Below, in pieces: positions 9,193 to 63,829 of a stretch of 64,000 nt of DNA. The DNA comes from Ananas comosus (Eukaryota > Streptophyta > Magnoliopsida > Poales > Bromeliaceae), in assembly GCF_001540865.1 (NCBI RefSeq), contig NC_033628.1:8091971-8155970 (forward strand), written 5' to 3'. The notes under the pieces are model-generated. The model ran no database searches and was not told the DNA's origin. It saw nothing but the letters and a program-made list of their open reading frames with translations. The translations under genes and the position numbers were made by a program. Every line of letters begins with the position of its first letter. Position 1 is the first letter of the stretch.

Positions 9193-9264
9193 AACCCGAA
9201 CCCGAACCCGATCCCGATCCGAACCCGAACCCGAACCCGATCCGAACCCGAACCCGAACCCGAA
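9193..9264. repeat. CCCGAA hexanucleotide array (left subterminal repeat)
   Basis: The sequence is composed of CCCGAA/CCCGAT units, mirrored by GGGTTC units at about 37690-37801 on the other side of the gypsy insertion. Not telomeric: the plant telomere unit is CCCTAAA. Confidence 0.75.
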
Positions 9265-9764: not shown

Positions 9765-11851
9765 TATAGTACACTGAACTTTAGCAAATTGAAAGATTCT
9801 AGTGTTAGAATAGTAATTGAAACTATTCTAGCTATTTTGAGGATTGTCGGGAGTGTACTGGCATTGAACTTAGGTGTTCTAAGTGCCAGAATGGGTTACT
9901 GACACTAAAACTATCAATTTTAGGTTTTGAGTGTTGATTACCAGTACCTGATTGGGGTACCGATACCTCAGAGGGTTGCCAAATTGGGTAGCTCTCGAGT
10001 TTGAGAAATTGGAGCTGGGTACTGGTACTGCATTGAGCTAGTACCGGTACACCGCATTAAACCCAGCTATCCAACGCTTGGGTTTTAGCTGTTTAAGTGC
10101 CGGGTAACAATACCTCAACCTAAGTACCGATACTCAATGCGGCAGTTTGAGTTGGTAAAGGAATTTTTAGTAATTTTGCAATTGTGGTTATCCTTATTAA
10201 TCCCAAACCAACCCCAAGCTGGTTTCTTTGTGTTTGAGCTTGGAGAAAACAGGATAAGCCTTTCTCTTTCTCTCTCTAGGTTCCATTGCAATTTTTGGGT
10301 GGAAAGTGATGGAATTGGGTTCTTTTCTTTTATCCTTTTCATGCTAGCTGGTCTTGAAAGCTTTGAAGGAACTGTGGAAGTGAAGAAGGAGATATTCTGA
10401 GGATATAGTTTTCGATCTTAGCTCAAGGGTGAGCTTGGCTTGGAGTTTTGTAAGGTTGGCTTCTTAATTGCTACCCTATATATGATTTTTGGTTGATTTA
10501 GAGTTTAGCTTTGGGTTAACTCTTAGCTAAGTTGTAGAACTCATTTGGTTGAGTATTTAACCTTCTTTTAGGTTGGTATTGGAGGGTCCAACCTGAAGTG
10601 AAGTGTGGATTAGAGTTTTACTCTATATAAGGTACGACTCTACCAATGTTAACTGGATTCTTAAGGTTCTTGGTAGGAGGCTTTGTAAAAGCTCCTAATT
10701 AATCTAAACTGGTTATTAGGGTGCTTGAAGGCTTCAAGCAATCGGAAGGAGTCGTCGTGTATCATCTAGCACACTTGTGTAGACAAGTTAAAAAGGTCAT
10801 TGATATAATAGAGCTAGCATGAATTTCATGTTAATGTTTATAACCTAGTTAAATAACTAGCATTTGACATGGGGACTTAGACTTCGACCTATGAGTCGTT
10901 AGAGGATATGCCATGTTTTAGACATGATGATTGAGAGCTTTATATTGTGAATCATGCTTGTTTGCCATTGTGCTCATTCGCACATGCTTGTGAGGGTCGC
11001 TCCCCACAAACCGGCACTCCAAAGTTGGCCTATGTGACATCATGCTCACCCGTGCGGGATTGAGTGTCGAAGTGGATTGCCGTAGGGAGTTAATACAACC
11101 ACGGGCCATTAGGCACGGCGCAAGCCAGACTACTCATGTGTTGGTCCTTGTAAATTGGGTAAAGATAACCAAATGTGTTAATTAAATGATCACTACTAGA
11201 TAGTGTACATTCATGGATATATTCTAGCATGCTTACTCATTTAGAGTAGTTTTATACTTGTTGCATATTATTATTTGCATTGGAGGCATAACAGTTCTAG
11301 TATTCATTAATTGTTTAATGTTTATATCATGGTATAGTGTACATGTTTACTATTTGTGTCTCAGGGACCAAGTGGTGTAATTCGCTGACATCGGCGGCTT
11401 ACCCATTGAGAACTATTGACTAATAGTTCTGATGACCTATTTGTTGTTGTTCTATTTTCATAGCCATCCACAACAGGAGAGGCTAGGAATCACGACAAGG
11501 GGGTCGCATCTAGCTAGACATATCCGGAGTTACCGCTAGGTGATCACCTCTCTATTTGAGTGAGCTGGAGAGGTTTATGTACTCATTGTATACAGACCAC
11601 CACATATATTTTAGTTGTTTTTGTGACCGATGGATGTATGTATTACTTTGGGAATTGTTCATGTTAGTATTATATTTTTCGTTCTACTTGTTTAGAGAGT
11701 AGTATTTGTCATATACTCTGATATCATGTTAGATGCTTCTATTTCTTTATGCTATTTCTAACATGTCTATTGTAGACGCCTTGTATACTCTGGGTATATG
11801 GCGGGTCTGTGTGCGTACCGGGTAGACTTCCGCTGAAGCCCGGGCGTGACA
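9765..11851 (+). repeat. 5' LTR of the gypsy element
   Basis: It begins TATAGTACACTGAAC (canonical TG mutated to TA) and ends GGGCGTGACA. Compared with the 3' LTR it lacks about 202 bases; in the 3' LTR that segment lies between two ATGTAT hexamers (36101 and 36303). A TATA-like CTATATAAGG lies at about 10623. The GAACTATT hairpin is at 11410-11429 and a pyrimidine-rich AG ends at 11463. The conserved core block runs about 10964-11147. Palindromic ACCGGT-like sites at 9940-10131 are more decayed than in the 3' LTR. Confidence 0.92.
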
Positions 11852-11859
11852 GATTATAG

Positions 11860-11872
11860 TGGTATCAGAGCC
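11860..11872 (+). other. Primer-binding site, initiator tRNA-Met type
   Basis: TGGTATCAGAGCC lies eight bases after the 5' LTR. It is the usual plant PBS complementary to the 3' end of initiator tRNA-Met, used to prime minus-strand DNA synthesis. Confidence 0.93.
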
Positions 11873-13807: not shown

Positions 13808-16454
13808 TGTCACGCCCCGGGACCGGCGGAGGCCCTCCCGGTAGCATGCCCAGACCCGCCATATGTCTACACATATAAGGCGTCTACAATAAAAGCGGAA
13901 GTAAAAGCAAGAGATGGGGCAAGTAGAAGCAGTGCAAGAACTAGCAACTAATGATATCAGAGCAGTGATTCTATCTTCTATAACAATAGGAAAAGAGCAT
14001 AACTAGACCATAAAAGTGAAACATAAGTTATACAGTATCAACCCCTAATACAAAAATGGTGGTCACTAGTACACTGGTAAAACTCTCAACCTCTCCCAAA
14101 ATAAAATGCGACGAGAGGTAGACCACCTAGCAAAACATCCTCAAAGGAAGCTAGCTCGAAGCAACTCCCTTCCCGCGATCCCTGGCCTCACCCTGAGTGG
14201 AAGGCTCTGAAAAACATCGAGAAAAAGAGGGCGTGAGAACTATAATTTATAGTTCCCAGTGGGCAATTACTGACCTCAGCTCTTGCTCCACTAGGCCCCG
14301 AAAATAAGGGTAAGTAATGCTAATAGCAATAAGCGATAAAAGGGAGCATGTAAATAGACTGCTGAAAGAGAGAGCATAAGTAAATTGCTATACTACCGTA
14401 TCCCTCATAAGCACAGAGTCAAAAAGTTGTACATCTATTCTATCATAAGGCAAAGTAACCAATGGCAATAGTTTACTGTTACAACCCTTTATTCAAACAT
14501 GATATATAAGCTCTATCGTGGCAACCAAGTATACTACATGTCTCATCCCTATGCTATATGCATGTAAATGTAATCCAACTACTAAGCCTATCTAGTAGTG
14601 ATTGTTCATTCTCAAACCGCGTCGATTTCCATTTCCAATTAAGAACCTACCCAAGGTAGTCCAGCTTGTGCCGCCTAAGTGTCTGTGGTAGCCCGACATT
14701 CCTATTCATGGAATGTGTCTGTCCCACTCGACCCCGTAGGCTTCTCGATACCGCACGAGCGAACATAAGTCGCGTAGGCTAACTCCAGAATGCCGGCTTG
14801 TAGGGAGCGACCCTCACAAGCATGTGCGAATGAGCACAAATGGCAAGCAAGCATAGTCCAAGTCTCAAGTACCCAATCCTCATGTCTCTAACATGATATA
14901 GTTACTAGTATCCCGAAGATCTAGTTTGAGTCACAATGTGAAATTTCAACATTCTCTAGGTCTAGTGCCCCTTTATGACACTTAGACATTTAATGTTCAA
15001 TATGTATTCCAAATCCCTGATGGCCCTATCCACTAGGTTCCCACATGTCCCGAGCTCAATGCCGCTTGATGACAATAGCTCCCTAATTCACTTAGCTTCT
15101 AAATGGCAATCTTGTCAACTTTCATGTCACAAGTAAACTTAGGTTTAAATGCATGAATCCAAACTCATTTATACAATAGAAGCATGATACCACGTCTCAT
15201 ATAGAATGCTAAATGCAACTATGGGCCAAACCAGCTACTCTCTACTACATAGAGGTCCAAAATTTCATCATATATAACATGTGCCTTTTAGGCATTCTAA
15301 AATTCACAATAAATACATATAATAAGAATATGCATGCTTTTTCGTTTATCGATACTTAATTAAGCACAAATGAAAATTTCTCATAGTGTGGCTAGGTCAA
15401 ACCCACCGAACCGTCGCGTAGAGCCTCGTTTCGCCGAACCAAGTTGTCCCCGAGTCTCAAAATACCCTAAAAGTAATCAGCGAAGAGATACGAGGGCATT
15501 ACGACCATCCTATAACATCAAACTTTAACCTAGAAGCAAAAAGGTCAAAACTCACCTCAAGAGTAGAAATCTCTTCCCAAGCTCTAAAAGAGAGCTAGAA
15601 CCCTTCCAATCCAAGCCCTAGGAAGGTTCTAAACCAATCAATTTAGCCTCAAAAGCCCTAGATCAAAAAGCCCCAAAAATCAACCCTAATACCCAAAACT
15701 AGGGTTTCAACACAAGAAGAATCTCAAATCCAACGTCTAGATGGAGAGAAAGGGCTACCAACCTCAAAGAAGCTTCAAACCAAGCTCAAAGGGTGAGAAT
15801 CTTCACTCTTGCAAGCTCCAAGTCCAAGCTCCAAGCACCAAGGAAGAAGAGAGGGTGAGGAAGGTACTCCAAGTCCTCTAAAAGCTCTAAATCTTCTTCT
15901 TCTTCTTCCCTCCTTCTCCTTCTTCTTCTCCTCCTTCTTTTCTCTCTAAGAAGGTTAACGAGGGAGTGTGAGGAGAGAAATGAGAAAGAGAGGGGGTGGA
16001 AGGGCTATTTAGGCCATCCAAAGTAACAAAATCCTGGGAGGTCCCTCAAAAATCCAATATTGCATCAGCCCGGTCTGGGCAATTTTCGCCCAGAGGGACC
16101 GGTCTCTCCCCAGCAGGGACCGGTCTCTCGCTGCGAACCCGAAAAACCATCGTTTGGGAACCGGTCTCTCCCTGCGCGGGACCGGTCTCTCACTGCGAAA
16201 ACGCGCTCGGGGACCGGTCTCGCCTGCGAGGGACCGGTTGCCTCAGGCTGCCTCGACACTGCTCACTGGGGGAACCGGTCTCTCCTTCCAGGAACCGGTC
16301 CCCGAGAGTAAAAACTCTCAGGACTTGTCCAAAGTTCCAAATTTTGAACTTTTCGGGTCGGGAAACATTTTACAACCCTCCACCAAGTGTGGAAAATCTC
16401 GAAATACATCCAAACACTCGAACCTCGCAATTCGCAAAGGTCCAGTGTGTTACA
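13808..16454 (-). mobile_element. Solo LTR B nested in solo LTR A
   Basis: It begins TGTCACGCCCCGGG and ends CCAGTGTGTTACA, with the perfect duplication TGACA on both sides (13803-13807 and 16455-16459). Length is 2,647 bp, minus orientation. It belongs to the same family as the 61388-63829 solo LTR: both start, in their own orientation, with a CACACTGGACCTTTGC phrase. It carries the hairpin (14237-14255), the core block (about 14641-14855) and an eight-site ACCGGT array (16098-16299). Confidence 0.92.
16098..16299 (-). promoter_or_regulatory. Array of eight ACCGGT palindromes in U3 of solo LTR B
   Basis: Exact ACCGGT sites start at 16098, 16119, 16160, 16181, 16213, 16233, 16274 and 16294. 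Spacings are 21, 41, 21, 32, 20, 41 and 20, all close to whole turns of B-DNA. Most sites sit in a GAGACCGGTCCC context in LTR orientation. The array is 155-356 bp from the LTR 5' end, where enhancers of LTR promoters normally lie. The binding protein is unknown. Confidence 0.6.
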
Positions 16455-17251: not shown

Positions 17252-17482
17252 ACCGGTACACTGGCTGGAGTACTGGTATCCCGCGACCGAACGCGTAAAC
17301 CCGATCCTCTATCAAACAGACAGACTGCAATGTACTGGTACTCGCGCGATGCAGTACCATACCAGGCCCCAATACCGGTACTCGGGCGATGCAGTATCAG
17401 TACTCTGCCTCGCAGAGCTCAATCCTAAGAGCTCTCCTCTCGGTTATGCGATGAGGTTCCGGTACCCTTCTCTGGTACCGGT
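17252..17482 (-). promoter_or_regulatory. Array of GTACCGGTAC-type palindromes in U3 of solo LTR A
   Basis: ACCGGT or one-base variants start at 17252, 17272, 17334, 17356 (weaker), 17374, 17396, 17457 and 17477. They occur as pairs 20-22 bp apart, with pair-to-pair steps of 82, 40 and 83. A TATATATA stretch at about 17186-17197 follows in LTR orientation, consistent with enhancer then promoter. Confidence 0.5.
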
Positions 17483-17659
17483 ACCTGGCACCCCAAAACC
17501 TGCAGTTTGGAGGTTTTGGTGCTAAGTACTCATCTTCGCTCCTTAAGACGCGAGTAATAGGTTGAAACACAGTCAACGACCCTCAAGAATACTAGAAAAG
17601 TCTCGGTATACTATTCCAACACTAGAACCTTACAGTTTGCTAAAGTTCAGTTTGCTACA

Positions 17660-23913: not shown

Positions 23914-26605
23914 TGTCACGCCCGGGTATCAGCGGAAGCATACCCGGTACATGCACAGATCCGTCATATACCTGCAGTATATAAGACGTCTACAAAATCA
24001 TATATAACAAGTAAAGATTGCAATAAGGTCCTAACATGATATCAGAGCAAAGTACAAGTCGATAATACTGTTGTTAGAAGAAAAGTAAGTGTAAACAACC
24101 CTGAATCTCAACTCCATAGAGAAACATCAACACTGTAATCCCAGGTGCAAACCACAAATGCATCACAAGGTCAGTCAAAATGTATGTACAATGGTAGTCT
24201 CTCTATACACGGGTACATCACCCTCGGCCGTAGCCCGAGTAGCAAGGTGATCATCTAGTCAAGCTCCAAGCTATATCTAGTTAGACGCGACTCCCTTGCC
24301 ACGATCCTTAGTCTCTCCTGTAGCAGCTGGCTCTATAAAAACAACAATAAAAATGGCATGAGAACTATTAAACAATAGTTCCCAGTGGGTAAGCCGCCAG
24401 CCTCGGCGAATTATACCACGAGGCTCATGATGTACTATCTAGAAAGTAAAAACAGTTATAACATGATAGTTTATCAACGATAAATAACTATGAATGTGTA
24501 TCATGCTGTCAGATATATCTGTCAAGTAATCACAATGAACGAGTAAAGTAATCACAATGAACATAAGTATGTCAATTAACTGTACACTACTCAGTGATAA
24601 TTAGCTATTGTTACCATTTAACACTTTGGTTTAATTCATAGGGACCTATTCAAGGTAGTCCCGCTTGCGCCGCGCCTAATGGCCCCCTAGTAGTATGCAC
24701 TCCCCACGGCAATCCACTTCGGCACCCAATCTCGCACAGGCGAGCAATCTGTCGCGTAGGTCAACTCCGGAGTGCCGGCTTGTGGGGAGCGACCCTCACA
24801 AGCTTGTGCGAATGAGCACAATGGCAAGCAAGCACGATCCATAGTCTAACAGTTCTCGGTTGTCATGTGTTAGCATGTAAGATTCTCACTCTCGAGCTTT
24901 AGGTCGGATTTCAACATAATATATCACGCTAGTATTCACTAGGTTAAATAAACATATAAAGGCAAGGTACAATTACATATGTCATTGTATCCGTTACTAG
25001 TCAATAATAATGTATGAATATACTATTAACCAAGTCACAAACTAATTGTCTTGGCCTTTATTTAACAGAAGCATAATAGATCATCCTTGTCTATGCATTC
25101 AAAATGAGGATGAAGACATGATTACACATGATTAGCAGTTCTATAACATCATCTAGAACATAGAGGAGAGTCACTTGCTCTGGTAAGGTTCAACCCACCT
25201 ATTAGTCGACGATTCACGTCCAACCTGCAGGTATGAATCTTCACAATTCTCCAAAAGCCCTAGCAACCGATACAAGATCAGCTAGGAGCATTCTTCAAAT
25301 CCTATGTAATTCTATCACATTAACACTTCTAGAAGGTAGAATTTCACCTTGTACCCTTCGATAGTTGAACCCCTGGTTCAGATTAGATGAATGCTCCAAG
25401 TTTCAGCTTCAAAAGCCTTCCAAAATCAGCCGAGATCTAACACACAGTCCGCTGCGAGCCTGCTACGAATTAGCTATAAAACTACATTGAAGTGCTTACT
25501 AAAATATCCTATTTCAGCAACTTCTCACTTCGTACTCAGTTATAGTTTTAGCCCATGTTTAATCCAGCTTAAAACATCAAATTCCACTTTCGTAAGTTCC
25601 CAGAAGTTAGCCGAGTGCCACCAAATACCCTGTCGCAAATCAGCTACACATTAACATCAAATCTGCACCACACTATAGGTAGTATCGTCTAATTCAAAAA
25701 GATTTTCACCTTATGTCAGGTTATAGCTTAGATCCCTGTCTTGGTTCAGTCCATGGCACTCAGTGTAATCTCCAAAGACTTCTAAATATCAGCCGAGATC
25801 AATTTATTGACCTCGCTACGAATTAATACCAAAACAGTCACCATACTTACTAATAAGCCTTATATAGTCATAATAAAAGAGTAATTAATCAGTTAATTAC
25901 CTTCTTAAGGCTTTGAATCCGCTTTTCCTTGAACTAGAATAGAGAAATTACAGCTAGGTATTTCCTTTCTCACTGCTGCAACCACTTCTCAACCAGCTGC
26001 GGTCACGATACAAAGAATAGGTTCAACTTCAGCACTAGAGCTTTAAAATCAAAACTAAATTAGGTAGTTTACCTTTCTAAGCCTCTCTTTAGCCTTTCTC
26101 TGCAGTAAGGATGAAGAACTCTGTCACAACACCTCCCCCTTAGCTCCAGAAGCTATCCCTCAAGGTTCCAAACCAGCTAGCACCAAGGAGAAGAAGGAAT
26201 CAAGCCAAATCAACCATTCCTTGCATTAGGAGAGAGAAATCTAGAGAGAGAAAATTAGAGAGCATCAACCCTTATCCCCTGGACTCCAGCACCCTTTGGG
26301 GAGTTGCTGAGGTTGTGCAAGAAGGATAAGGATAGAGATAGAAGGGGAAAAGACCAAAATGCCCAAATTGCCACGCACCTGCTGCTGCTGCTGCTTGCTG
26401 TACCGATACAACATTGAGGTTGTACCGGTACACAATGCAGGAAAATGCAAAACTTGAAATTGCAATGCACTTTCTCGTCTCCTACACTCCGATCACTCTC
26501 AAACTTATCCGTAAACATCTTTATACTCTTAAAAACATGTAGGATGGTTCCAATTATTATTCCCATACTCGAACTTCGCAATTTGCTAAAGTTCAGTATA
26601 CTACA
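23914..26605 (-). mobile_element. Solo LTR E nested in solo LTR D
   Basis: It starts TGTCACGCCCGGG and ends GTTCAGTATACTACA, with perfect TAAAC on both sides (23909-23913 and 26606-26610). Length is 2,692 bp, minus orientation, and its ends resemble the host gypsy element's LTRs. It carries the hairpin (24362-24381), the core block (about 24635-24835) and a single palindrome pair (26402 and 26424). Confidence 0.93.
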
Positions 26606-30930: not shown

Positions 30931-33321
30931 TGTCACCCCCGGCGACCGCTACCAATTTGGCCAGCCCGGGCACGTCGAACAGATGCTGAACGGACAGCAC
31001 CTCCCCTGTCCGCCCAAGGCTAAGCATCAACAATCATGTACAAGAGTTACCAAGGAAAACTCAAACACATACATGATCATACATGAAGCACCACAAGTGC
31101 TATACAAGTAAAAGCAAGAATCACAAGTACATACGAGTGAATAAAAGAGAGAACATTCTATCTATTACATCACATTCACCATATTTGATTCACCTTTACA
31201 ACTTCCAAAGTACGGATACAAGTTCACCTCATCATGATATAAGTGTGAATACAACTCTCCAAAAGTATTTCACAACCTATACATCATCTACACTCACATA
31301 CATAGGGTGCTACTAATGCAAAAAAGGAAAGCTGCTAATGCTACTAGGGCGCTATGCCCTTACCGCGATCCTCGTCCGGAGCGCTCGAACTAGGCCCTGC
31401 AACAAAGTAGGGTGAGAACTATATAAATATAGTTCCCAGTGGGTTCGGCCGCCGACTCCGCCGATCTTCCCACTAGGTCTAAACAGGCATAAGTAGATAA
31501 ACAGATAGATAGATATGAAATCAACTAATGCATAGTAACGAAACTTACAAATATTCTACTATGCCTTAATCGATGATAATATATGCATGAACAATATAAT
31601 AGCGAAATATGCTAGCATGACACTATGTTCAAGAGTTGATGCCATTCATTGTTTACCCAATCACTTGGCTAACCCAAAGGTTTACCCTCGACTCACATCT
31701 CGAATCCCATAGGTGAGGAGTCGCACCTGCTCAACTCACCCGAGACCGCCTGCGGGACAACTAGCTTCTACCCCTTATGTGCCATACTCCGGAATGCACG
31801 GCTTGTGTGGAGCGACCACCCCAAGCTCAAATAGATAATGTGAGTATGATCTAATCCTCATCACTGAGGATGCCCTGTCAACTAGGGTCACGATCACTCG
31901 GGACTCCAACTATCCCTATATTCAATGTCATACTGTTTTAACTACACTAAGTTCTCATATCACAATTCACAACTAGGGAATCCACATATCCCTAAGTTTA
32001 ATATCTCAAGTGTTTCTCTACACTATGTTCAAATGCCACTCATGATGCTCGGATACAAATACTAAGTTCCTCACATATTTAGCACTATAGGTTTCCAATG
32101 TCATCACCCAATCCTTATGTCCCTTACATCTAGTATCCATAACATAATACTATTTCAACTATGGAAATCATACAAGGAGTAGGAATGCATATGTCATCAT
32201 CTTATAATGCATAACAATATACAACATGCAAGTCGACAATGCACTAAGACATAGAAAGAAGCTCAGATGCTTCGGGATGACACACCCCCACTTTTTTGTG
32301 ATACCGCGATCCTAGGAACACGATTTGGCGATTCTACGACGTCGCCTCGGCCTTCCAGGTGAAAACGAAACTTCGACCGCCCCCTTTTTGCCGATATCTT
32401 TACACCGACTCGACGGATTGTCGAACCGTCTTCGCCAACGTATTTAAACACCTAACAATTAGGTTTATACACGATCAATTTGGATCAAACCCTACCATTT
32501 ACCAAAAACCCATTTTGAAGCCCTCGGTGATAACTATTGCAAGAACACATCAATACCACCTTTGATTCATGCAATAATCAACTCACTAGCACCCCAGGGT
32601 TCAACCAAAACTAACTCTAGAGTATAAGATGCAAACCCTAGAAATTCACCATTAAAACTTAGAAGCTTACCTTCACAAGCTTCTCCTCCCAAGCCTCCAA
32701 GCCAAGGAAGAAGATAAAGAACCTTCTTCTTGCCCTAATCTCCACCAATTTCTCCTCTTTTCCCACCTTCTAGAGAGAGAGAAAGAGAGCTTAGAGAGAG
32801 AGAGAGAGCTTAGGTTTAGGGTTAGGTTAGAGGAAAAGTGAAAGAAGAGAGAAAGGCCACCCTCCACTTAACCCCACACATGCACAATTGCTCAAAACCC
32901 CCTCAACAATGCAAGTTATGCATAGCCCAACCTGAGCATTTTCGAGCTACGGGGACCGGTCTTTCCCTAGAGGGACCGGTCCCCGAGAGCAAATTTTGCG
33001 GGCAGAGCTATTCTGCCCATTCTACTCGTACGGGGACCGGTCCCCTCCTCCTGAGGGACCGGACCCTGAGAGCAAAACTTGTGCGTAGCATTTTCCTGCC
33101 ACACACCATGCGTAAGGGAACCGGTCCCTCCCGCCAGGGACCAGTCCCCGAGAGCAACTTCTGCGATTGTGCAGATTTGCACTAGCTTGCTCTCCGAGGC
33201 CCTCTACAACGCACTTAAACACTTTTTGACGCCTTCGGCCTTTCCGAAGTGTACCAAACTAACACTCGGTCGATTTGAATCAAAGTTCAACTCTCGTATT
33301 TCGAGAATTCACTTCCTTACA
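30931..33321 (-). mobile_element. Solo LTR F inserted in RNase H
   Basis: It begins TGTCACCCCCGGCG and ends CACTTCCTTACA, with perfect AATGC on both sides (30926-30930 and 33322-33326). Length is 2,391 bp, minus orientation. The RNase H frame continues across it without loss. It carries a divergent hairpin (31416-31435) and three pairs of ACCGGT-type sites (32955-33145). Confidence 0.93.
32955..33145 (-). promoter_or_regulatory. Three ACCGGT pairs in U3 of solo LTR F
   Basis: Sites start at 32955, 32975, 33036, 33058 (ACCGGA), 33120 and 33140 (ACCAGT). Pairs are 20-22 bp apart and pair starts are 81 and 84 bp apart, so each pair belongs to an approximately 82-bp tandem unit. The first site is about 180 bp from the LTR 5' end. 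Confidence 0.55.
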
Positions 33322-33326
33322 AATGC

Positions 33327-35041
33327 AAGGTGTACACAGATCATAAGAGTTTAAAGTATTTATTTATCCAGAAAGAATTGAACTTGAGACAACGCAGATG
33401 GCTAGAATTGCTCAAGGATTATGATCTGACGATTCTCTACCACCCAGGAAAAGCGAACGTGGTGGTGAATGGCTTAAGTCACAAATCGACTGAGAAGTTG
33501 GCAATGCTTATAGCATCGCAACCACCGTGGAGATGAAACGGTTGGAACTAGAAGTTGTGACTCCCGATACGCCTTTACGGCTAATGTCTTTGGTGGTACA
33601 GCCTACTCTAATGGATAGAATAAAGGAAAAGCAAGTTCTTGATGAACAACTGCAAAAGATTCGATTGAAGATCACTGAAGGATATACCAGTGACTTTCAT
33701 GTGGATGATCAAGGATTATTGCGATTTCGCCATTGGATTTGTGTACCAGCGGAATCATGCATTAAAAAGGAAATTTTGATAGAAGCTCATCGTGCACCTT
33801 ATGCTCTACATTCAGGAGGTACAAAGATGTACAAGAATTTGAAATTAGTATATTGGTGGCCCGGAATGAAAAAGGGGATTGGAGAGTTTGTAGCTCAATG
33901 TTTGACATGTCAACAGGTAAAAGTTGAACATAGACTACCAGCGGGAAAGCTTCAGAGTTTGCCTATACCTGTGTGGAAATGAAAAAGGATTACCATGAAT
34001 TTCATTGTGAGCTTGCCTCGCTCACAAGCTTGTCACGACGCGATCTGGGTAATCGTGGATAAATTGACAAAATCTGCCCATTTCATTCCGATTCACATTG
34101 TTTGGACGGGGGAGAAAATCGCACAAGTGTACCTTGATGAAATTGTGTGACTGCATGGAGTGCCTACTTCTATTTTATCAGATTAAGATTTTTTATTTGT
34201 ATCACATTTTTGGAGGAGCCTGCACGACGCATTAGGCACTCAACTGGATTTTAGCACTACTTTCCACCCCCAGAGTGATTGGCAGCCTGAGCGTACTATT
34301 CAGATTCTTGAGGATATGCTTCGGGCTTGTGTGATAGATTTTTAGGGCGGATGGCCACAGTATCTACCTCTGACAGAGTTTGCTTATAACAACAGTTATC
34401 AAGCAAGCATTAAAATAGCGCGTTTGAAGCCCTCTATGGCAGGAGGTGTAGATCACCACTTCATTGGAGTGAAGTAGGTGAAAGGCTGAAGTTGGGTCTA
34501 GATGTGCTTCAGGAGGCTGAAACTAAGATTCGACTTGCACGAGAGCGATTAGTTACAGCTCAAAGTAGGCAGAAAAGCTACGCTGATAAACGTCGATGAG
34601 AATTAGAATTTCAAGTGGGAGACCACGTCTTTTTGAAAGTCTTGCCGACAAAGGGGATCAAAAGATTTAGTATTCAAGGAAAGTTAAGTCCTTGATTCAT
34701 TGGACCCTATGAAGTGTTGGAGCGTATTGGCCCGGTAGCGTATCGGCTTGCGTTACCGCCGAACCTATCAGGGGTGCATAATGTATTTCATGTCTCAGCA
34801 CTTCGGAAATACATTTTCGATCTAGCTCATGTATTAGATATTACACCAGTAGAGCTACGAGGATTTGCGCTTCGAGAAGCGACCAGTGCAAATTTTAGTT
34901 CGTGAGGTGAAAAGGCTTCGGAATCATGATATTCCTTATGTGAAAGTACTTTGGAGCAACCACGACGAGCGCGAAGCCACCTGCGAACTAGAAAGTGCAT
35001 TGCAAGAGCACTATCTCCATCTTTTTCAGATTGAGGCATGA
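33327..35041 (+). pseudogene. pol: pol part 2: RNase H end, integrase, chromodomain-like tail (gypsy)
   Basis: RNase H resumes with [12 protein letters not shown] and ends with [16 protein letters not shown]. Integrase has the H2C2 zinc finger (HRAPYALHSGGTKMY and CLTCQQVKVEH, about 33785-33925). The catalytic core follows: first Asp in WVIVDKLTKSAHF, second Asp in ILSD, and Glu in PERTIQ (about 34290). The C terminus reads GPYEVLERIGPVAYRLALPP, then SALRKYIF, then VKRLRNHDIPYVKVLWSNHD. This is the chromovirus-type end that would tether integration to chromatin. Stops include TGA near 34148, TAA near 34183 and TAG near 34343; most can be explained by C-to-T or G-to-A changes. Confidence 0.92.
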
Positions 35042-35080
35042 GATACTTGATTTCTAGTTTCATGAACGAAACTCCTTTTT

Positions 35081-35092
35081 AGGAGGGAAGAA
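35081..35092 (+). other. Polypurine tract
   Basis: AGGAGGGAAGAA lies directly before the 3' LTR and would prime plus-strand DNA synthesis. Position and composition fit; no other purine run is as close. Confidence 0.85.
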
Positions 35093-37396
35093 TGTAGTAC
35101 ACTGAACTTTAGCAAATTGCAATGTTCTAGTGTTAGAATAGTAATTAAAACTATTCTAGCTGTTTTGAGGATTGTCGTGAGTGTACTGGCATTGAACATA
35201 GGTATTCTAAGCGCCAGGATGGGTTACTGACACTAAACCTGTAAATTTCAGGTTTTGAGTGTTGAATACCGGTAACTGATTGGGGTACCGGTACCTTAGA
35301 GGGTTGCTAGATTGGGTAACTCTCGAGTTTGAGAAATTGGAGCTGGGTACTGGTACTGCAATGAGCTAGTACCGGTACACCGTATTAAACTCAACTATCC
35401 AGCGCTCGGGTTTTAGCTATTTAAGTGCCGGGTACCGGTACCTCAACCTGAGTATCGGTACTCAATGCGGCAGTTTGAGTTTGTAAAGGGGTTTTTGGTA
35501 ATTTTGCAACTGTGGTTATCCTTATTAATCCCCAAACCGACCCCCAGCTAGTTTCTTTGTGCTTGAGCTTGGAGAAAACAGGATAAGCCTTCCTCTTTCT
35601 CTCTCTAGGTTCCATTCCAATTTTTAGGTGGAAAGTGATGGAATTGAGTTCTTTTCTTTTCTCCTCTTCATGCTAGCTGGTCTTAAAAGCTTTGAAAGAA
35701 CTGTGGAAGTGAAGAAGGAGATATTCTGAGAATATAGTTTTCAATCTTAGCTCAAGGGTGAGCTTGGCTTGGAGTTTTGAAAGGTTAGCTTCTTAATTGC
35801 TACCATATATATAATTTTTGGTTGATTTAGAGTTTAGCTTTTGGTTAACTCTTGGCTTAGTTGTAGAACTCATTTGGCTGAGTATTTAACCTTCTTTTAG
35901 GTTGGTATTGGAGGGTCCAACCTGAAGTGAAGTGTGGATTAGAGTTTTGCTCTATATAAGGTATGATTCTACCTATGTTAAGTGGATTCTTCAGGTTCTT
36001 GGTAGGAGGCTTTGTAAAAGCTCCTAATTAATCTAAAATGGTTATTAGAGTGCTTGAAGGCTAGAGAGCTTCTTCATTCAATCAATCGGAAGGAGTCGAC
36101 ATGTATTCGATGGGTTTGACCTCACTGAAATGGATAAACTTTCCCTATGTTCTTGTTAGTGTTATGAAATTGGAAAGCATATATATGTATATATGCTAGT
36201 AGCATCATAAATGAGTTATTGGATGTATTAAATATACATATATCATGTGGCAAAGATATATCTTTATGTAGTAGAGAGTAGTATGCATTAAATTCATGAA
36301 ACATGTATCATCTAGCACACTTGTGTAGACAAGTTAAAAAGGTCATTGATATGATAGAGCTAGCATGAATTTCATGTTAATGTTTATAACCTAGTTAAAT
36401 AACTAGCACTTGACATTGGGACTTAGACTCCAACCTATGAGTCGTTAGAGGATATGCCATGTTTTAGACATGATGATTGAGAGTTTTGTATTGTGGATCA
36501 TACTTATTTGCCATTGTGCTCATTCGCACATACTTATGAGGGTCACTCCCTATAAACCGGCACTCCAGAGTTGGCCTACGCGACATCATGCTCGCCCGTG
36601 CAGAATTGAGTATCGAAGTGGATTACCGTGGAAAGTTTATACTACCACGGGGCCATTAGGCGCGGCGCAAGCCGGACTACGCATGTGTAGGTCCTTGTAA
36701 ATTGGGTAAAGATAACTAAATGTGTTAATTAAATAATCATTACTAGATAGTGTACATTCATAGATATATTCTAGCATGCTTACTTATTTAGAGTAGTTTT
36801 ATACTTGTTGCATATTATTATTTGCATTAGAGGCATAACAGTTCTAGTATTCATTAATTGTTTAATGTTCATATCATGTTATAGTGTACATGTTTACTTT
36901 GTGCCTCAGGGACCTAGTGGTGTAATTCGCTGACGTCGGCGGCTTACCCACTGGGAACTATTGACTAATATTTCTGATGCCCTATTTGTTGTTGTTCTAT
37001 TTTCAGAGCCATCCACAGCGGGAGAGGCTAGGGATCGGAGTAAGGGGGTCACATCTAGCTAGACATAGCCGGAGTTATCGCTAGGTGATCACCTCTATGT
37101 TTGAGTGAGCTGGAGAGGTTTATGTACTCATTGTATAGAGACCACCACATGTATTTTAGTTGTTTTTGTGACCGCTGGATGTATGTATTACTTTGGGAGT
37201 TGTTTATGTTAGTATTATATTTTCCGTTCTACTTGTTTAGAGAGTAGTATTTGTCATATTCTCTGATATCATGTTAGATGCTTCTATTTCTTTATGCTAT
37301 TTCTAACATGTCTATTGTAGACGCCTTGTATACTCTGGGTATATGGCAGGTCTGTGCGCATACCGAGTAAGCTTCCGCTGAAGCCCGGGCGTGACA
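35093..37396 (+). repeat. 3' LTR of the gypsy element
   Basis: It begins TGTAGTACACTGAAC, ends GGGCGTGACA and is 2,304 bp. It is the better preserved LTR and keeps the segment (36101-36302) missing from the 5' copy. It shows a CTATATAAGG box at about 35951, the core block (about 36510-36695), the hairpin (36955-36974, one mismatch) and a TTTTCAG at 37001-37006. Confidence 0.93.
35268..35459 (+). promoter_or_regulatory. Three GTACCGGTAC-type palindrome pairs in U3 of the 3' LTR
   Basis: Sites start at 35268, 35287, 35349 (ACTGGT), 35371, 35434 and 35454 (ATCGGT). Pairs are 19-22 bp apart and pair starts are 81 and 85 bp apart. This is nearly the geometry of the array in solo LTR F, although the bases around the core differ. 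Confidence 0.55.
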
Positions 37397-37689: not shown

Positions 37690-37801
37690 GGTTTGGATAT
37701 GGATTTTTAAAATCCGTCGGATTCGGGTTCGGGTTCGGGTTCGGGTTCGGGTTCAGGTTCGGGTTTCGGATTTGGAGTCGGGTTCGGGTTCGGGTTTTTG
37801 A
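37690..37801. repeat. GGGTTC hexanucleotide array (right subterminal repeat)
   Basis: Repeated GGGTTC units are the reverse complement of the 9193-9264 array. The minus-strand translation is a run of Asn-Pro dipeptides, which explains the long Asn/Pro-rich ORFs here as repeat artefacts. Confidence 0.75.
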
Positions 37802-37839: not shown

Positions 37840-39600
37840 GCTCCCTTTTGATTCCTTGTTGGTGACAAAAAGAGAAGAACTCATTTGAAGTGAACTCGCC
37901 ACTGTTGTCGGTACGCAAACATTTGATCTTACGGTTGAGCACACCTTCAACGGTCTCTTTGAACTCTATAAACTTAGAGAATACCTTGGACTTCTCCTTG
38001 ACAAAATACACCCAATTGTAAAATCATCAACAAACAACATGTAATAGGAGCTGAGTACATACTTGTTAAATAGAAGCCGATGTGCCTTTCCATATTGACG
38101 TCCTTCATAAAATTCATCACTACCAAAGGTAGCAAGATTAGGCAAACCATTCACCAAATTTTTTGACACCATAACTTTAAGCTTATCCATACTAAGGTGT
38201 TCCAAATTGCATGCCATATGGCAGCCCATTCACCAAATTTTTTGACACCATAACCTTGAGCTTATCCATACTAAGGTGTTCCAAATTGCATGCCATATGG
38301 CAGCCCGATCATTTGTTTTCATCTTATCAACATAAGAAGAAGAAAATAGAAGAAAATAAGACAAACAAATCATTTACCCTTGCACTGGTATGAACTATCT
38401 CCATCTATAAGTCGGTGATGTTCTTGAGAAACTTCACATCTTTAGGCCCAAACAAGGTGTTGTGTCCCGCGTCCATGACATTTGCAAGAGAGAAAAGATT
38501 CTTCTTCATCCTCAGCACATGTTTGAGAATGATAGGATTGTCATTGTTGCTGCCTTTGATGGTAATAGGACCTTCCTACTCTACCGAGTGAATGATGTTA
38601 TCCGCCATAATGATACCATCATTGCCTTCGTGTCATCGAAGCCTAGAGAATTTAGAGTCATTGCTGGTGAGATGATGACCGCATCCGGAGCCACAATTAT
38701 AATTAATAGAGGCCGAGGCTCCAATAGAAGAAGACTCCACCATGAAGTAATGTCCCCGATCTTCAATTTGACTCAACAATTTTTCTTGACATGGCCTAGC
38801 TTGCCACATCAATAGCACTTGATCACTTTCTTCCACTTTCTCTTGCCATTAAAAGTAAACTCTCCATCTTTTTTCTATTCTTCTTCTCCTCTTTGTTGTG
38901 ACCCTTTTTATTTCTGGTGAACAAGATGTCCCCATTGCCCACCGAAACAAAACACCCGTCCATTTGTCGAGAGAGGAACTCTTGTGAAGCAAGAAGATTC
39001 TCAAACTCCATTGAAGAAGGTTGCCTTTGGCACCGCTGAATAGAGGTAACATAAGCATGGTACTCCTTGTTGAGATTGCGAATAATATAACTTTTTATTT
39101 GCGTCTCCAAAATAGGCTCGTCAGAATCCAATGCGAAATTTCCGAACAAAGATTTTTTTACCTTCAAAAAATATTGAGAGATAGAGATTACCTTGAATGG
39201 TGTTAGTTAAATCATTCTCAAGTAGTTGTAGCCAAGCACTATTCTTTTTATTCATCAACCCGTCTAGAGTCTCATAACTTTCTTGCACAAACTTGCACAC
39301 AATAATGTTCTCGAACAAGTCATGAGAGATGGACCTCTTCAAGATGAACTCCACCTTTGCATTCAGTCTTCCATCTCTTCAAGGCCTCCCTTTCTCAAGA
39401 GTATTTGCCAGAGCCTATCAAAATCCACTGTCAAGGACATTCCAAAGGTCTTCGTCGACAACGTATGACTCGAAACACGACTTCCAAACTTTGTAGTTAG
39501 ATTGGTTGAGAATCTCCACCCCGAGTCCAACAACACAACTACTTGCCTCTATCTTCCACACCGTCTTCTTCTCTAAAGGAAGCCTTGCAACGCACCACAT
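37840..39600 (-). pseudogene. Ty1/copia gag-protease-integrase remnant
   Basis: Read on the minus strand. The gag start GVEILNQSNYKVWKSCFESY is near 39510, and gag core sequences lie at 38823-39354. A CCHC knuckle has one Cys changed to a stop, seen as CGKLGHVKKNC near 38800. A degenerate protease region follows (38400-38760). The pre-integrase segment LEHLSMDKLKVMVSKNLV lies near 38180. The integrase start reads YMLFVDDF (about 38030) and then LRTDNSGEF (about 37905), with the second catalytic Asp in RTDN. Homology stops at about 37840, where the DNA transposon begins. The type resembles TNT1/Tork-like copia elements. Multiple frameshifts and a 79-bp duplication show it is dead. Confidence 0.8.
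38147..38304. repeat. 79-bp tandem duplication inside copia remnant
   Basis: The segment beginning CCATTCACCAAATTTTTTG at 38147 is repeated at 38226 with about two differences. Because 79 is not a multiple of three, it disrupts the pre-integrase frame. Confidence 0.88.
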
Positions 39601-40002
39601 AGAGCAAGATCCAAGTCGTGCTTCTCAAATAGTGCATTAAGAAGACTACTAACCCAAAGTTATACTATACTTGAGAAGGAAGAACAAGAGAAATGGGGAA
39701 CAAAGTAACAATTGTTTTGTATTAAAAATAGAAAGATTCTCACGCATTTAATCTAAGTCCAAAAAGATGGTATAACTTTGGGTTAGTAGTCTTCTTAATG
39801 CACTATTTGAGAAGCACGACTTGGATCTTGCTCTATGTGGTGCGTTGCAAGGCTTCCTTTAGAGAAGAAGACGGTGTGGAAGATAGAGGCAAGTAGTTGT
39901 GTTGTNGGAAGAACAAGAGAAATGGGGAACAAAGTAACAATTGTTTTGTATTAAAAATAGAAAGATTCTCACGCATTTAATCTAAGTCCAAAAAGATGGT
40001 AA
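39530..40002. repeat. Inverted plus direct duplication around an N
   Basis: Bases 39530-39665 are the reverse complement of 39771-39905. The 97-base segment at 39677-39773 recurs directly at 39907-40002. A single N (39906) sits at the joint. The order A, B, A-reversed, N, B is typical of a misassembled fold-back, although a real inverted duplication is possible. Confidence 0.85.
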
Positions 40003-41190
40003 AATACTACTAAGTACATGTATTCTCATAAAATGCATGCATACTACTCATATACACCAACAGAAGTGGTGGGTTCAAGAGAGTTTGCTCTTGAATTAAA
40101 GATTAAAAAATAAGAATGTGAAAAGATGTATAAAGGTTCAGAAAGGTGGTATAATTTTGAATGATTGTTGAGGGTTGGAAGATAAAGTAGAAAGTCCACA
40201 TGTATAAATGGTTTTGTACTATATGAGTCGCATGAGGAAATTATAAGAACACATGCAAATACATAATTTGCTTAACCATAGAGAAACTGCTTTCAGGTTC
40301 CGAACTTCGAAGAAAAAGTCTAGACTTCCTTTTAAGAAACTTGAACATGGTTCTGGTTTCAGTCTTCAGATGTGGAGCCCAGACTCTCATGTAAAAACAT
40401 GAAATCCGTGGTTCGGTTTCCAGGCATCGGATGGAATTTAAGGACTTCCAAGGTAGAAAAGTTCCATAGAACAGAATTTTAAATCCAACTTAAAACAATG
40501 TAAATAACTTCCAAAGTTGTAAATATGCATTAAAATCACCATGAACACTAATCTTAACTTACCGAGCACTGGGAACGTGAATTATAGGTTTTCGAGTCTT
40601 CAAAAATGATCTTCTCATCACGAACTCTCCAAGACTTAAAACTCAAACCACGTGAAATGCACCAACAAATAAATCTCTAATAATTTCCCCCTTCGGCTAT
40701 TTCGTGGCAAAACCCAAACTTACAAGAAAACACCCACCGCAGTCACCTCACAAAGATAAAACAAACAGCGCTCATCACAATCACCAAACAATAAACTCCT
40801 CGCATGATTGTTCCCAAAACACAAAAGACTTTATCACTTTAACACAATGGGAGTTTTGAAGTCTTAATAAGAGTTTTGAAGTCTGATACGCCCTGTGAAA
40901 AGAAGCAAAGAAACAATCTCCGTGAAATAACATTAAAAATCAAGATTTTCCCTTTGCATGTTGTGTTCACTGGCTCCCTCTTTTTGTCAGCGAAATCCCA
41001 ATAACAACACAAAATACCACAACAAAGGAAATACCAAAAAGCATAATAGAAAGTGATAATCCAGACAAAACAGACATTCGAAGCATAAAGTAAACATGAA
41101 AGTAAACTACAATGCAACTAATGCAATGTACCCAAATTAAAAATTACATACAATGCAGTCCTAGATAACATGAAGTACGAGGCATCGCAA
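40003..41190. other. No gene recognised
   Basis: AT-rich DNA with short ORFs only. A phrase near 40400-40440 (AACATGAAATCC, GGTTCGGTTTCCAG) resembles one near 43165-43205 on the far side of the following gene. This may mean the gene lies inside an element with related ends. Confidence 0.35.
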
Positions 41191-61387: not shown

Positions 61388-63829
61388 TATAGCACACTGG
61401 ACCTTTGCAAATTGCGAGGTTCGAGTGTTTGATATGGATTCCGAACTTTTCCACACTTGGTGGAAGGTCGTAGATGGTATTCCGACCTAAAAGTTCGATT
61501 CCTGGAGTTTTGGCATTGTCCTGAGAGTTTTCACTCTCGGGGACCGATCCCTGATAGGAGAGACCGGTCCCCTCAGAACAGTGTTGCGGCAGCCTGCGAG
61601 GCAACCGGTCCCTGGCAAATGAGACCGGTCCCCGAGCGCGACTACGCGGGGAGAGACCGGTTCCCGAACGTTGGATTTTCGGGGCAGGCTGAGAGACCGG
61701 TCCCAGGTCGGGGAGACCGGTCCCTCAGTCCAAAAACTGCCCAGACTGGGCAGTGCACAGTGTTGATTGTTGAGAGACCTAAGTGGATTTTGTTACTTGG
61801 GATGGCTTATATGGTCCTCTCTCTTACTCTCACTCTCATTTCTTTCCCTCACACCCACACTAGAGAGAGAAAGAGAAGGAGAAGAAGAAGAAGGAGAGGA
61901 GAGGAGCTTACTTGGAGGCCTTGGAGCATCTTCTTCCTCTCATCACACATTGGTGGCTTGGAGCTCGTGATTGAAGCTTCGTGGAGGATCAAGCTTCAAC
62001 CCTTCTTGGTTTAGAGCTTGGTTTGGAGCTTCTCTTGAGGTTGGTAGCTTGTATTTTCCATTTAATACAAGTTTTTCTAGATTTTACTAGATGACACCCT
62101 AGATTGTGGAATTAGGGTTTATTTTGGGAATTTTTGATTTGAGGGCTTTGAAACCTAATTGATGGGTTTAGAACCTTTATTTAGGTTGGATTTGAAGAAC
62201 TCTAACTCCCATTTGGAGCTTGAGAGAGGATTTCTTCACTTGAGGTGAGTTTCTCCACCTTAGCTTAAGATGGCTAATGATCGATCACTTGGGTGTTCGT
62301 AAGACTCGTTTGACTCTCTTTTCTATACCTTTAGGGTACTAGGAGAGTGGTGGACACCTTCGTTGGAGCTTACGAAGGGTTTCGATAACTTCGGTGGGTT
62401 TGACTTCATGAATCGGGGCTAAATGGCCCTTAAGTATTCTATACTTGTCGTAACGTCAATTTGATTGCATATTCATGTTAAATGGGATTTATGTGAATTT
62501 TAGAACACTTAAAATGCATGTCTTATGTATCATGAAAATTTCACTCTATATAGTAGGGCATTCTGGGCATTTTTGCATGCATGTGAGAAGTGTTCGTGTT
62601 AGCGACTTGAAAACATGTCTCTTATGTTAGAATTTGCTCAAATTATGTATTTATAAACAATAAACTCATGTTTGGACTTAGTGGACAAAAATGCCATAAA
62701 GAGGCACTTGACATAGTAAACTGTGAAACTGCAACATAGAGACATACTGATAGGCCATTGAACATCTGCTATATTCCATGTTAGAGACATGATGACATAG
62801 AGATAGGCCTTTGAGACATTCGACGTACATTCCATGTTTTTAGATATAAGGACTTAGTACTTGAGACAGATCTTTCGCTTGCTTGCCATTGTGCTCATTC
62901 GCACATGCTTGTGAGGGTCGCTCCCTACAAGCCGGCACTCCGAAGATAGCCATCGCGACATATGCTCGCACGTGCGGGATTGGGCGCCGAAATGGGATGC
63001 CGTGGGGGAGGCTCATTCCTAGAGTGGGGATGTTGACTACCACGGGGCCATTAGGCACAGCGCAGGCCGGACTACCCACGAGTAGGTCCTACAGGATTGG
63101 ATCATTGATGACTTAGCATACCGACTGGACATTGACTAGAATAGTAAACAAGACATTTTACTATTTAGCTTGTGGACATCATGCTAGTGATACTTTGATA
63201 CATTCATGTTAGAATAGTCTTTTATTACTTACGCAAATTCATGCTAAGTAGAGATATCATATTGTAGTAAGTTTACATGTTTACTTACATATCGATTCTA
63301 TTGCTTTTATTGTTACTTACCTATTTAGCTCTTTTGGGCCTAGTGGTGCTTTCACTGAAGTCAGTAATTGCCCACTGGGAACTATTATTTAATAGTTCTC
63401 ACGCCCCCTGTTTTATGGTTTTTCTTTTAGAGCCCTCTGCACCAGCGGAGGCACGGGACCGCGGCAAGGGAATCGCTGGCTAGATAGCGAGGATTTACTG
63501 TTGCTTAGGTGGTTTTCTCTCTTTTTGTTGTTGTTAAGAGAGAGAGAGAGAGGGGTTTTGTATCCATGTATAGAGACCATCTATGTATTTACTTATAGCA
63601 CTTGCTTTGGGATTCTTCTTGTACTACTTTATGTTTTCATCTAGTGGATTTTAGTTTTATGGTTCTTTTTCTCTATTGTAGCATCTAGATATACTTGCTC
63701 TGATACTCCTAGATGTTCTCTTTTTACTGCTTCATCTATCGTTTTGTTTTAGACGCCTTATATGTTTTAGACATATGGCGGGTCTGGACACGCGCCGGGC
63801 GGGCTTCCGCTGGGTCCCGGGGCGTGACA
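61388..63829 (+). mobile_element. Solo LTR, same family as solo LTR B
   Basis: It begins TATAGCACACTGGACC (canonical TG changed to TA), ends CCCGGGGCGTGACA, and has perfect ATTAA on both sides (61383-61387 and 63830-63834). Length is 2,442 bp, plus orientation. It carries the ACCGGT array (61543-61721), a TTATATGG box near 61808 followed by CT-rich DNA, the core block (62881-63092), the hairpin (63379-63398) and TTTCTTTTAG at 63421-63430. Confidence 0.93.
61543..61721 (+). promoter_or_regulatory. ACCGGT palindrome array in U3 of the right-hand solo LTR
   Basis: Sites start at 61543 (ACCGAT), 61563, 61604, 61624, 61656, 61696 and 61716. Spacings are 20, 41, 20, 32, 40 and 20. Aligned to solo LTR B, one 21-bp unit is missing, so the remaining sites keep the same helical face. 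The TTATATGG box lies about 85 bp downstream. Confidence 0.6.

Follow-up and report, generated by a model that had tools for sequence, protein, structure and literature searches.

A 64,000-nucleotide stretch of the pineapple (Ananas comosus) genome, positions 8,091,971 to 8,155,970 of contig NC_033628.1 and hereafter called the window, carries long terminal repeats (LTRs) whose U3 regions contain arrays of the palindrome ACCGGT, and the sites of these arrays are helically phased, standing for the most part close to whole turns of the DNA helix apart. Counting their flanks, the palindromic sites reach up to 12 bp and occur in two dialects, GTACCGGTAC and GRGACCGGTCYC, which are almost never mixed within one array (referred to below as the T dialect, with T...A flanks, and the G dialect, with G...C flanks). 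Judged from their sequence, the arrays probably act as U3 enhancers, or as anti-silencing platforms, that would be bound cooperatively on one face of the DNA by a palindrome-reading factor.

ACCGGT occurs 32 times in the window, where 6.8 occurrences were expected and the maximum in 100 dinucleotide shuffles was 16. Words with at most one mismatch, exact ones included, were not in excess over the whole window (154 versus 168.5 expected), and the decayed sites therefore rest on their position within arrays and not on their number. Eleven of the 13 one-mismatch sites in the window arrays are C-to-T or G-to-A changes. Besides single ACCGGT sites scattered in the window, the following arrays were found:

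9940 to 10131, plus strand: decayed T-dialect array, one exact and four one-mismatch sites; spacings 19, 62, 22 and 83 bp.
16098 to 16299, minus strand: G-dialect array, eight exact sites, in the U3 of the LTR called LTR B; LTR 5' end near 16453.
17252 to 17482, minus strand: T-dialect array, three exact and three one-mismatch sites; LTR 5' end near 17659; TATA-like word downstream.
26402 to 26429, minus strand: lone T-dialect pair, one exact and one decayed site 22 bp apart; LTR 5' end near 26605.
32955 to 33145, minus strand: G-dialect array, four exact and two one-mismatch sites; spacings in the LTR sense 20, 62, 22, 61 and 20 bp.
35268 to 35459, plus strand: T-dialect array, four exact and two decayed sites; spacings 19, 62, 22, 63 and 20 bp; LTR 5' end near 35093.
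61543 to 61721, plus strand: G-dialect array, six exact sites and one decayed site (one mismatch); TATA-like word downstream.

The array of LTR B has its eight exact sites at spacings of 21, 41, 21, 32, 20, 41 and 20 bp, all as the first-pass annotation of this DNA had described. The other arrays named there are also real, but not all of their sites are exact, each array being a mixture of exact and one-mismatch sites; the pair at 26402 to 26429 is likewise present, as one exact and one one-mismatch site. The array at 9940 to 10131, absent from that list, has the layout of the 35268 array minus one site.

Counts were made over the whole genome (381,958,007 bases in 3,128 contigs), with the reversed word as control and with repeat counts that are lower bounds. 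Pairs of ACCGGT 10–40 bp apart numbered at least 43,127, compared with 1,219 for the control; a three-site pattern was found 12,478 times (control 264) and pairs 24–54 bp apart 22,879 times (control 897). Among 20 stretches at fixed places on contigs 1–10, 200 kb in total, ACCGGT was the most frequent palindrome with four G or C (54 occurrences), followed by GAGCTC (45) and GCATGC (41); TCCGGA occurred 18 times and ACGCGT 20 times. A sample of 57 arrays with 302 exact sites was assembled from the window and 63 loci, of which 20 were fixed places, 40 were chosen on contig 1 for visible arrays and three came from the first search; loci L002–L005 were dropped for their overlap with L001. The arrays hold 2–10 exact sites, and at least eight in 6 of the 57 (counted per array, not per full element). 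This wider sample supported the earlier suggestion that the arrays are a U3 feature common to several LTR families.

The proposed spacing near whole helical turns was borne out both in the 57 arrays and in the whole-genome counts. When transition-decayed sites were included, 158 of 289 neighbour gaps measured 19–23 bp, and 97 of the 101 gaps of at least 25 bp deviated by no more than 2.5 bp from a multiple of 10.4 bp, where chance alone would place about 48% so close. These long gaps spanned 3 (8 gaps), 4 (36), 5 (13), 6 (23), 7 (12), 8 (5), 9 (2) or 10 (2) turns, an odd number being nearest in 35 of the 101. Their periodicity (R) was 0.76 for a period of 10.6 bp and 0.29 for one of 20.7 bp. 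Since odd turns are frequent and R is low at 20.7 bp, a repeat unit of that length is insufficient by itself. Exact sites alone gave the same picture in 99 gaps, the observed value being reached by none of 2,000 sets with jittered spacing, and each dialect taken separately had most gaps within 0.2 turn of a whole turn (T, 45 of 50; G, 45 of 49). Computed array by array at 10.4 bp, the mean R was 0.79 (50 arrays; jitter null at most 0.49), and it was 0.88 for six fixed-place and four window arrays, as high a value occurring in 0 of 1000 jittered sets. When one array was kept per BLAST group, the 23 remaining gaps had an R of 0.72, still above all jittered sets (null maximum 0.66). Genome-wide, 7,336 pairs lay 71–74 bp apart, 866 at 66–69 bp and 440 at 55–58 bp (reversed-word controls 188, 70 and 53); distances about half a turn off are rare and the odd seven-turn class is common. 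These results demonstrate that the helical phasing of the ACCGGT arrays is real.

Two further features of these distance classes were observed. At least nine of the listed places with 55–58 bp came from one repeated 63-base stretch (57-bp spacing) that looks different from the LTR arrays. Among the listed 71–74-bp distances, long gaps often contain more inverted repeats, such as GACTTAGCC...GGCTAAGTC and CCCGAG...CTCGGG.

The symmetry of the sites extends beyond the core. Over 178 non-identical sites, taken from the arrays of the loci up to L047, flanking bases matched across the palindrome in 79% of cases at position 1 and 71% at position 3, compared with 40% and 38% for re-dealt flanks; the effect was weak at position 4 (39% versus 30%). 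The T dialect comprises 36 arrays with 166 sites (143 full, 12 half, one of the G kind and 10 other) and the G dialect 21 arrays with 136 sites (83 full, 49 half, none of the T kind and four other), the two-site array L014, which has neither flank, being assigned to the G group by default. The 35268 and 32955 arrays belong to different dialects and have near-identical spacings, and a self-comparison (over 60 bp, E 1e-6) listed no match between them there. Their likeness is best read, from the sequence, as a single ancestral layout that may have been retained even as the bases flanking the core were altered at each of the sites.

Other words accompany the arrays. A second word, CCCGAGAGC (complement GCTCTCGGG), was found in or beside 30 of the 57 arrays (20 T and 10 G, for example L036, L030 and L041); among its 40 occurrences, nine begin 7 bp and six begin 28 bp past the start of the nearest site. 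Moreover, L033, L041 and L042 each have one site that forms a perfect 24-bp palindrome, GATGGCTGTACCGGTACAGCCATC, far longer than the usual site.

The arrays also keep a restricted place in the LTR. LTR starts were located for 41 of the 57 arrays: a first type of start was flagged for 29, and a second type, TGTRRKATCCCTGG, gave 15 hits, of which about one is expected by chance (background 12 in 400,000 bases), one is doubtful and two overlap the first set. The first exact site lay 153–210 bp from the start in 37 of the 41, with offsets clustered at 153–156, 174–178, 188–190 and 196–199 bp for the first type and at 167–169 and 184–185 bp for the second. The first-pass annotation had put the beginning of every window array about 155–182 bp from the LTR 5' end; this agrees with four window arrays (154–178 bp to the first exact site) but not with the 32955 array, whose offset is 209 bp, its first site, 33145, being decayed and the start of this LTR, like the starts matched to it, being uncertain by about 12 bases. 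A TATA-like word was present 40–140 bp downstream in 21 of 37 orientable arrays and upstream in none of the 37, using a word list that was fixed after examples had been seen and omitting four of the 41 oriented arrays with short or masked flanks. In the window, the TATA-like sequence said to follow the arrays was recovered for the 17252 and 61543 arrays, but not for LTR B or for the 32955 and 35268 arrays.

Taken together, these features suggest a mechanism. Each ACCGGT palindrome would constitute a single binding site for a DNA-binding factor that is symmetric and dimeric. Site pairs lie about two turns apart and the longer gaps span three to ten whole turns; because both are whole turns, bound dimers would stand on the same side of the helix. 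Dimers aligned in this way could touch and act jointly on a core promoter whose TATA-like word would lie 40–85 bp downstream. A symmetric protein with its dimers on one face would therefore explain the symmetry, the pairs, the phasing and the fixed place together. Binding by a dimeric factor, put forward in the first-pass annotation, is consistent with the palindromic form of the sites. We infer protein binding, its cooperativity, the action of a single factor and the preference for activation over repression; activation, or the keeping away of silencing, is suggested by the retention of the sites in elements that multiplied. As a lead only, one table entry in PMC8725346 gives dACCGGTw, labelled MYB94, as a plant motif. 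In the passage of PMC6300899 that contains ACCGGT, the word belongs only to a cloning primer. More tentatively, a large lineage might depend on one dedicated palindrome reader, of the host or of the element, that assembles along one face of U3 and with which the two dialects co-evolved as it changed; in this view the flanks of an LTR's sites would have been altered in concert and the helical layout preserved, as expected of such co-evolution, though we regard this extension as rather doubtful.

Several observations weigh against this interpretation or its strict form. Flank symmetry at position 2 did not exceed that of shuffles (62% versus 59%), and G-dialect sites are often imperfect palindromes there (GGG.CTC 25 sites, GAG.CCC 19, GGG.CCC 16). 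Gaps of 14–18 bp, about 1.4–1.7 turns, occur in both dialects and do not obey strict phasing; they usually lie within four-site clusters (19-15-19 or 23-17-22) whose total span is about five or six turns. Phasing was weaker among 94 listed distances of 24–54 bp, non-neighbours included (R 0.39, uniform-null maximum 0.38). The distance from the array to the TATA-like word has no helical phase; such a phase had seemed plausible by eye and was unsupported when tested. Folding of the U3 RNA is possible. The arrays are related by descent, BLAST grouping placing them in groups of 33 and 20 with four singletons, and their independence is therefore limited. With one array per BLAST group only eight long gaps are left; all are of 4, 6 or 8 turns, so that in this reduced set a helical rule and a 20.7-bp unit would look alike.

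This last point bears on the idea that the spacing is a by-product of tandem duplication of units of about 20 bp and 60–80 bp, its phase being unselected. Tandem Repeats Finder reported repeats of 21 bp (2 copies) and 83 bp (2.5 copies) in two window arrays, and since both dialects share the array plan, much of the spacing must be inherited. Tandem duplication surely helped to build the arrays, without by itself giving odd turn numbers; the 35 odd-turn gaps, the low R at 20.7 bp, the genome-wide rarity of half-turn-off distances and the abundance of the seven-turn class all argue against it, and we consider it quite improbable as the explanation of the phase. That the spacing arose solely from a simple 20-bp tandem repeat is rejected, odd turns being frequent in the full sample. 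An effect on nucleosomes, in which the rhythm of about 10.4 bp of GC-rich palindromes would set the rotational position of a nucleosome on U3, seems highly improbable. The period of nucleosomal DNA is close to that of the arrays, and the larger arrays are as long as a nucleosome, but a GC rhythm would suffice as a rotational signal, with no need for an exact word with matched flanks, and twelve other CpG palindromes gave 0–3 close pairs each where ACCGGT gave 165 at the same loci, which had mostly been chosen for ACCGGT.

The palindromes could also act as hairpins, through pairing of site with site in U3 RNA or in extruded DNA, in the biology of the element or in small-RNA silencing. For 19 of the 57 arrays the predicted stability of the RNA was compared with that of dinucleotide shuffles and was higher (mean z −5.0). 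In folds predicted for the arrays, the main partner of a site is another site in 241 of 294 cases. With the sites and four flanking bases held and the gaps shuffled, a small excess was left (mean z −1.40, 20 of 57 below −2). In close pairs the first inner base matched at a rate of 0.87, compared with 0.61 in far pairs; within flank classes, close pairs kept an outer-flank surplus at positions 3 and 6 (z 3.0 and 2.1), and some gaps are visibly self-complementary. Over the first four inner bases, however, close pairs were no more complementary than neighbouring pairs (match-rate sums 2.30 versus 2.44), the inner surplus disappeared within flank classes (z −1.0 to 1.2), separate hairpins need no whole turns between them, and no Rfam family reached its gathering score in the window. 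Hairpins are thus unlikely to be the explanation, and are retained as a rival on account of the first inner base, the two outer positions and some of the folding energy. Finally, the sites might be the target of a repressor or silencing factor by which the host recognises this lineage. The same sequence evidence would serve this reading as well as an enhancer, and the CCGG within the sites is a target of CG and CHG methylation. Elements that have multiplied this far would nevertheless be expected to shed a purely harmful target, and single-copy departures from the site comprise 44 transition-type words (4 of the 18 possible) versus 29 other one-mismatch words of the same stretches, a lean towards methylation-type decay; a repressor appears very unlikely.

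The array-bearing stretches of the window are LTRs of related families, which match one another in blocks of 65–93% identity, some of them including arrays. Four of their six 5' ends have TGTA and, at most a few bases later, ACTG; the other two have a decayed start, and the 3' ends are GGGCGTGACA. The features that bear on the type of element are:

9765 to 11852, plus strand: LTR bearing the 9940 array; 5' end decayed, 3' end GGGCGTGACA.
11860 to 11871, plus strand: primer binding site TGGTATCAGAGC, directly behind the 9765 LTR.
33279 to 34902, plus strand: broken pol encoding, in this order, RNase H, the integrase zinc-binding domain and a Tf2-1-type SH3 domain; upstream of the LTR of the 35268 array.

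We take TGGTATCAGAGC to be the usual plant primer site for initiator-Met tRNA. In the broken pol, whose open pieces were searched separately, RNase H stands ahead of integrase, and this one element therefore shows the Ty3/gypsy order. This RNase H-before-integrase arrangement, a feature of Del/Tekay (Ty3/gypsy), was found in one element; no chromodomain was matched in its C-terminal pol piece, which is short and broken. The carriers are thus probably a Ty3/gypsy retrotransposon lineage, for which we infer the name Del. A passage of PMC6022998 puts the Del lineage of Ty3/gypsy at 16.4% of the 382-Mb pineapple assembly.

The LTR of the 32955 array (window 32500–33340) is apparently nested, on the opposite strand, within the region for RNase H of another element (window 33279–35090), the 3' LTR of which begins near 35093. 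Elsewhere in the window, hexamer runs of AACCCG (9193–9264) and TCGGGT (37717–37796) match one another in inverted orientation, and at 39526–40004 a 384-bp stretch matches its own reverse complement at 85% identity, with 98 bases of it repeated directly behind at 99%.

The arrays address the question of how plant LTR elements gain transcription despite silencing, and their sequence gives a quantitative grammar made of a site, a flank dialect and whole-turn spacing. Since one genome offers tens of thousands of site pairs, the factor should be recoverable and the spacing rule can be tested directly.

Repeated regulatory words are known from other mobile elements. Plant LTR retrotransposons of the tobacco Tnt1 type have tandem activator boxes repeated in U3, with a different motif; to our knowledge, these boxes have no word shared across many families and no helical phase. 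VANDAL elements are DNA transposons. In the sections of Hosaka et al. 2017 (PMC5735166) that concern them, the target arrays of VANC resemble the pineapple arrays in that short motifs are repeated in the non-coding DNA of a mobile element and the units of an array diverge together; there the motifs are acted upon by the VANC protein, which the element itself encodes. A word search of the main text of that paper gave neither "palindrom" nor "spacing".

The closest parallel lies in the Sireviruses. The first-pass annotation had held that no such U3 code was described in plant LTRs; this was wrong, as Sirevirus LTRs contain clusters of CGG-CCG palindromes (PMC2829016). In 13 elements from different plants, these palindromes, termed RM, are near-identical CCG/CGG words that cluster ahead of the TATA box and within the LTR's first half (Bousios et al. 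2010, PMC2829016). The pineapple arrays are likewise palindromic, repeated in the LTR and, in part of the arrays, upstream of a TATA-like word, and their half-site ACCG/CGGT is present in several RMs (CGGTCTGACCG, CGGTCGACCG; PMC2829016). The two systems differ in several respects. Sireviruses are Ty1/copia elements, whereas the pineapple carriers show the Ty3/gypsy gene order in the one element examined. The half-sites overlap as ACC-GGT around a CCGG core in pineapple and follow the order CGG...CCG in the RMs. The Sirevirus clusters start 200–400 bp into the LTR (PMC2829016) and the pineapple arrays mostly at 153–210 bp. The RM section of PMC2829016 states no spacing rule. As to copy number, for which RM clusters are characterised by eight or more per element, the pineapple arrays hold 2–10 exact sites each. 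In maize, Sirevirus LTR palindromes have been tied to small RNAs (Genome Research, 2016, as cited in PMC10760457). According to the part of PMC10760457 that treats them, these palindromes, like those of pineapple, form clusters in the cis-regulatory portion of the LTR and are predicted to give strong RNA structure, but their motif is CACCGGAC...GTCCGGTG and the elements are Ty1/copia.

In the open-access literature, most subscription papers lying outside the scope of the search, no description was found of Ty3/gypsy arrays of this kind, of the helical rule or of the dialects. The kind of array is thus already known from the Sireviruses, and what would be new in pineapple are the Ty3/gypsy carriers, the helical rule and the dialects. 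That clusters of CCG/CGG palindromes occupy comparable positions in the LTRs of elements with Ty3/gypsy order and of Ty1/copia Sireviruses hints at a possible convergence on a common class of host factor.

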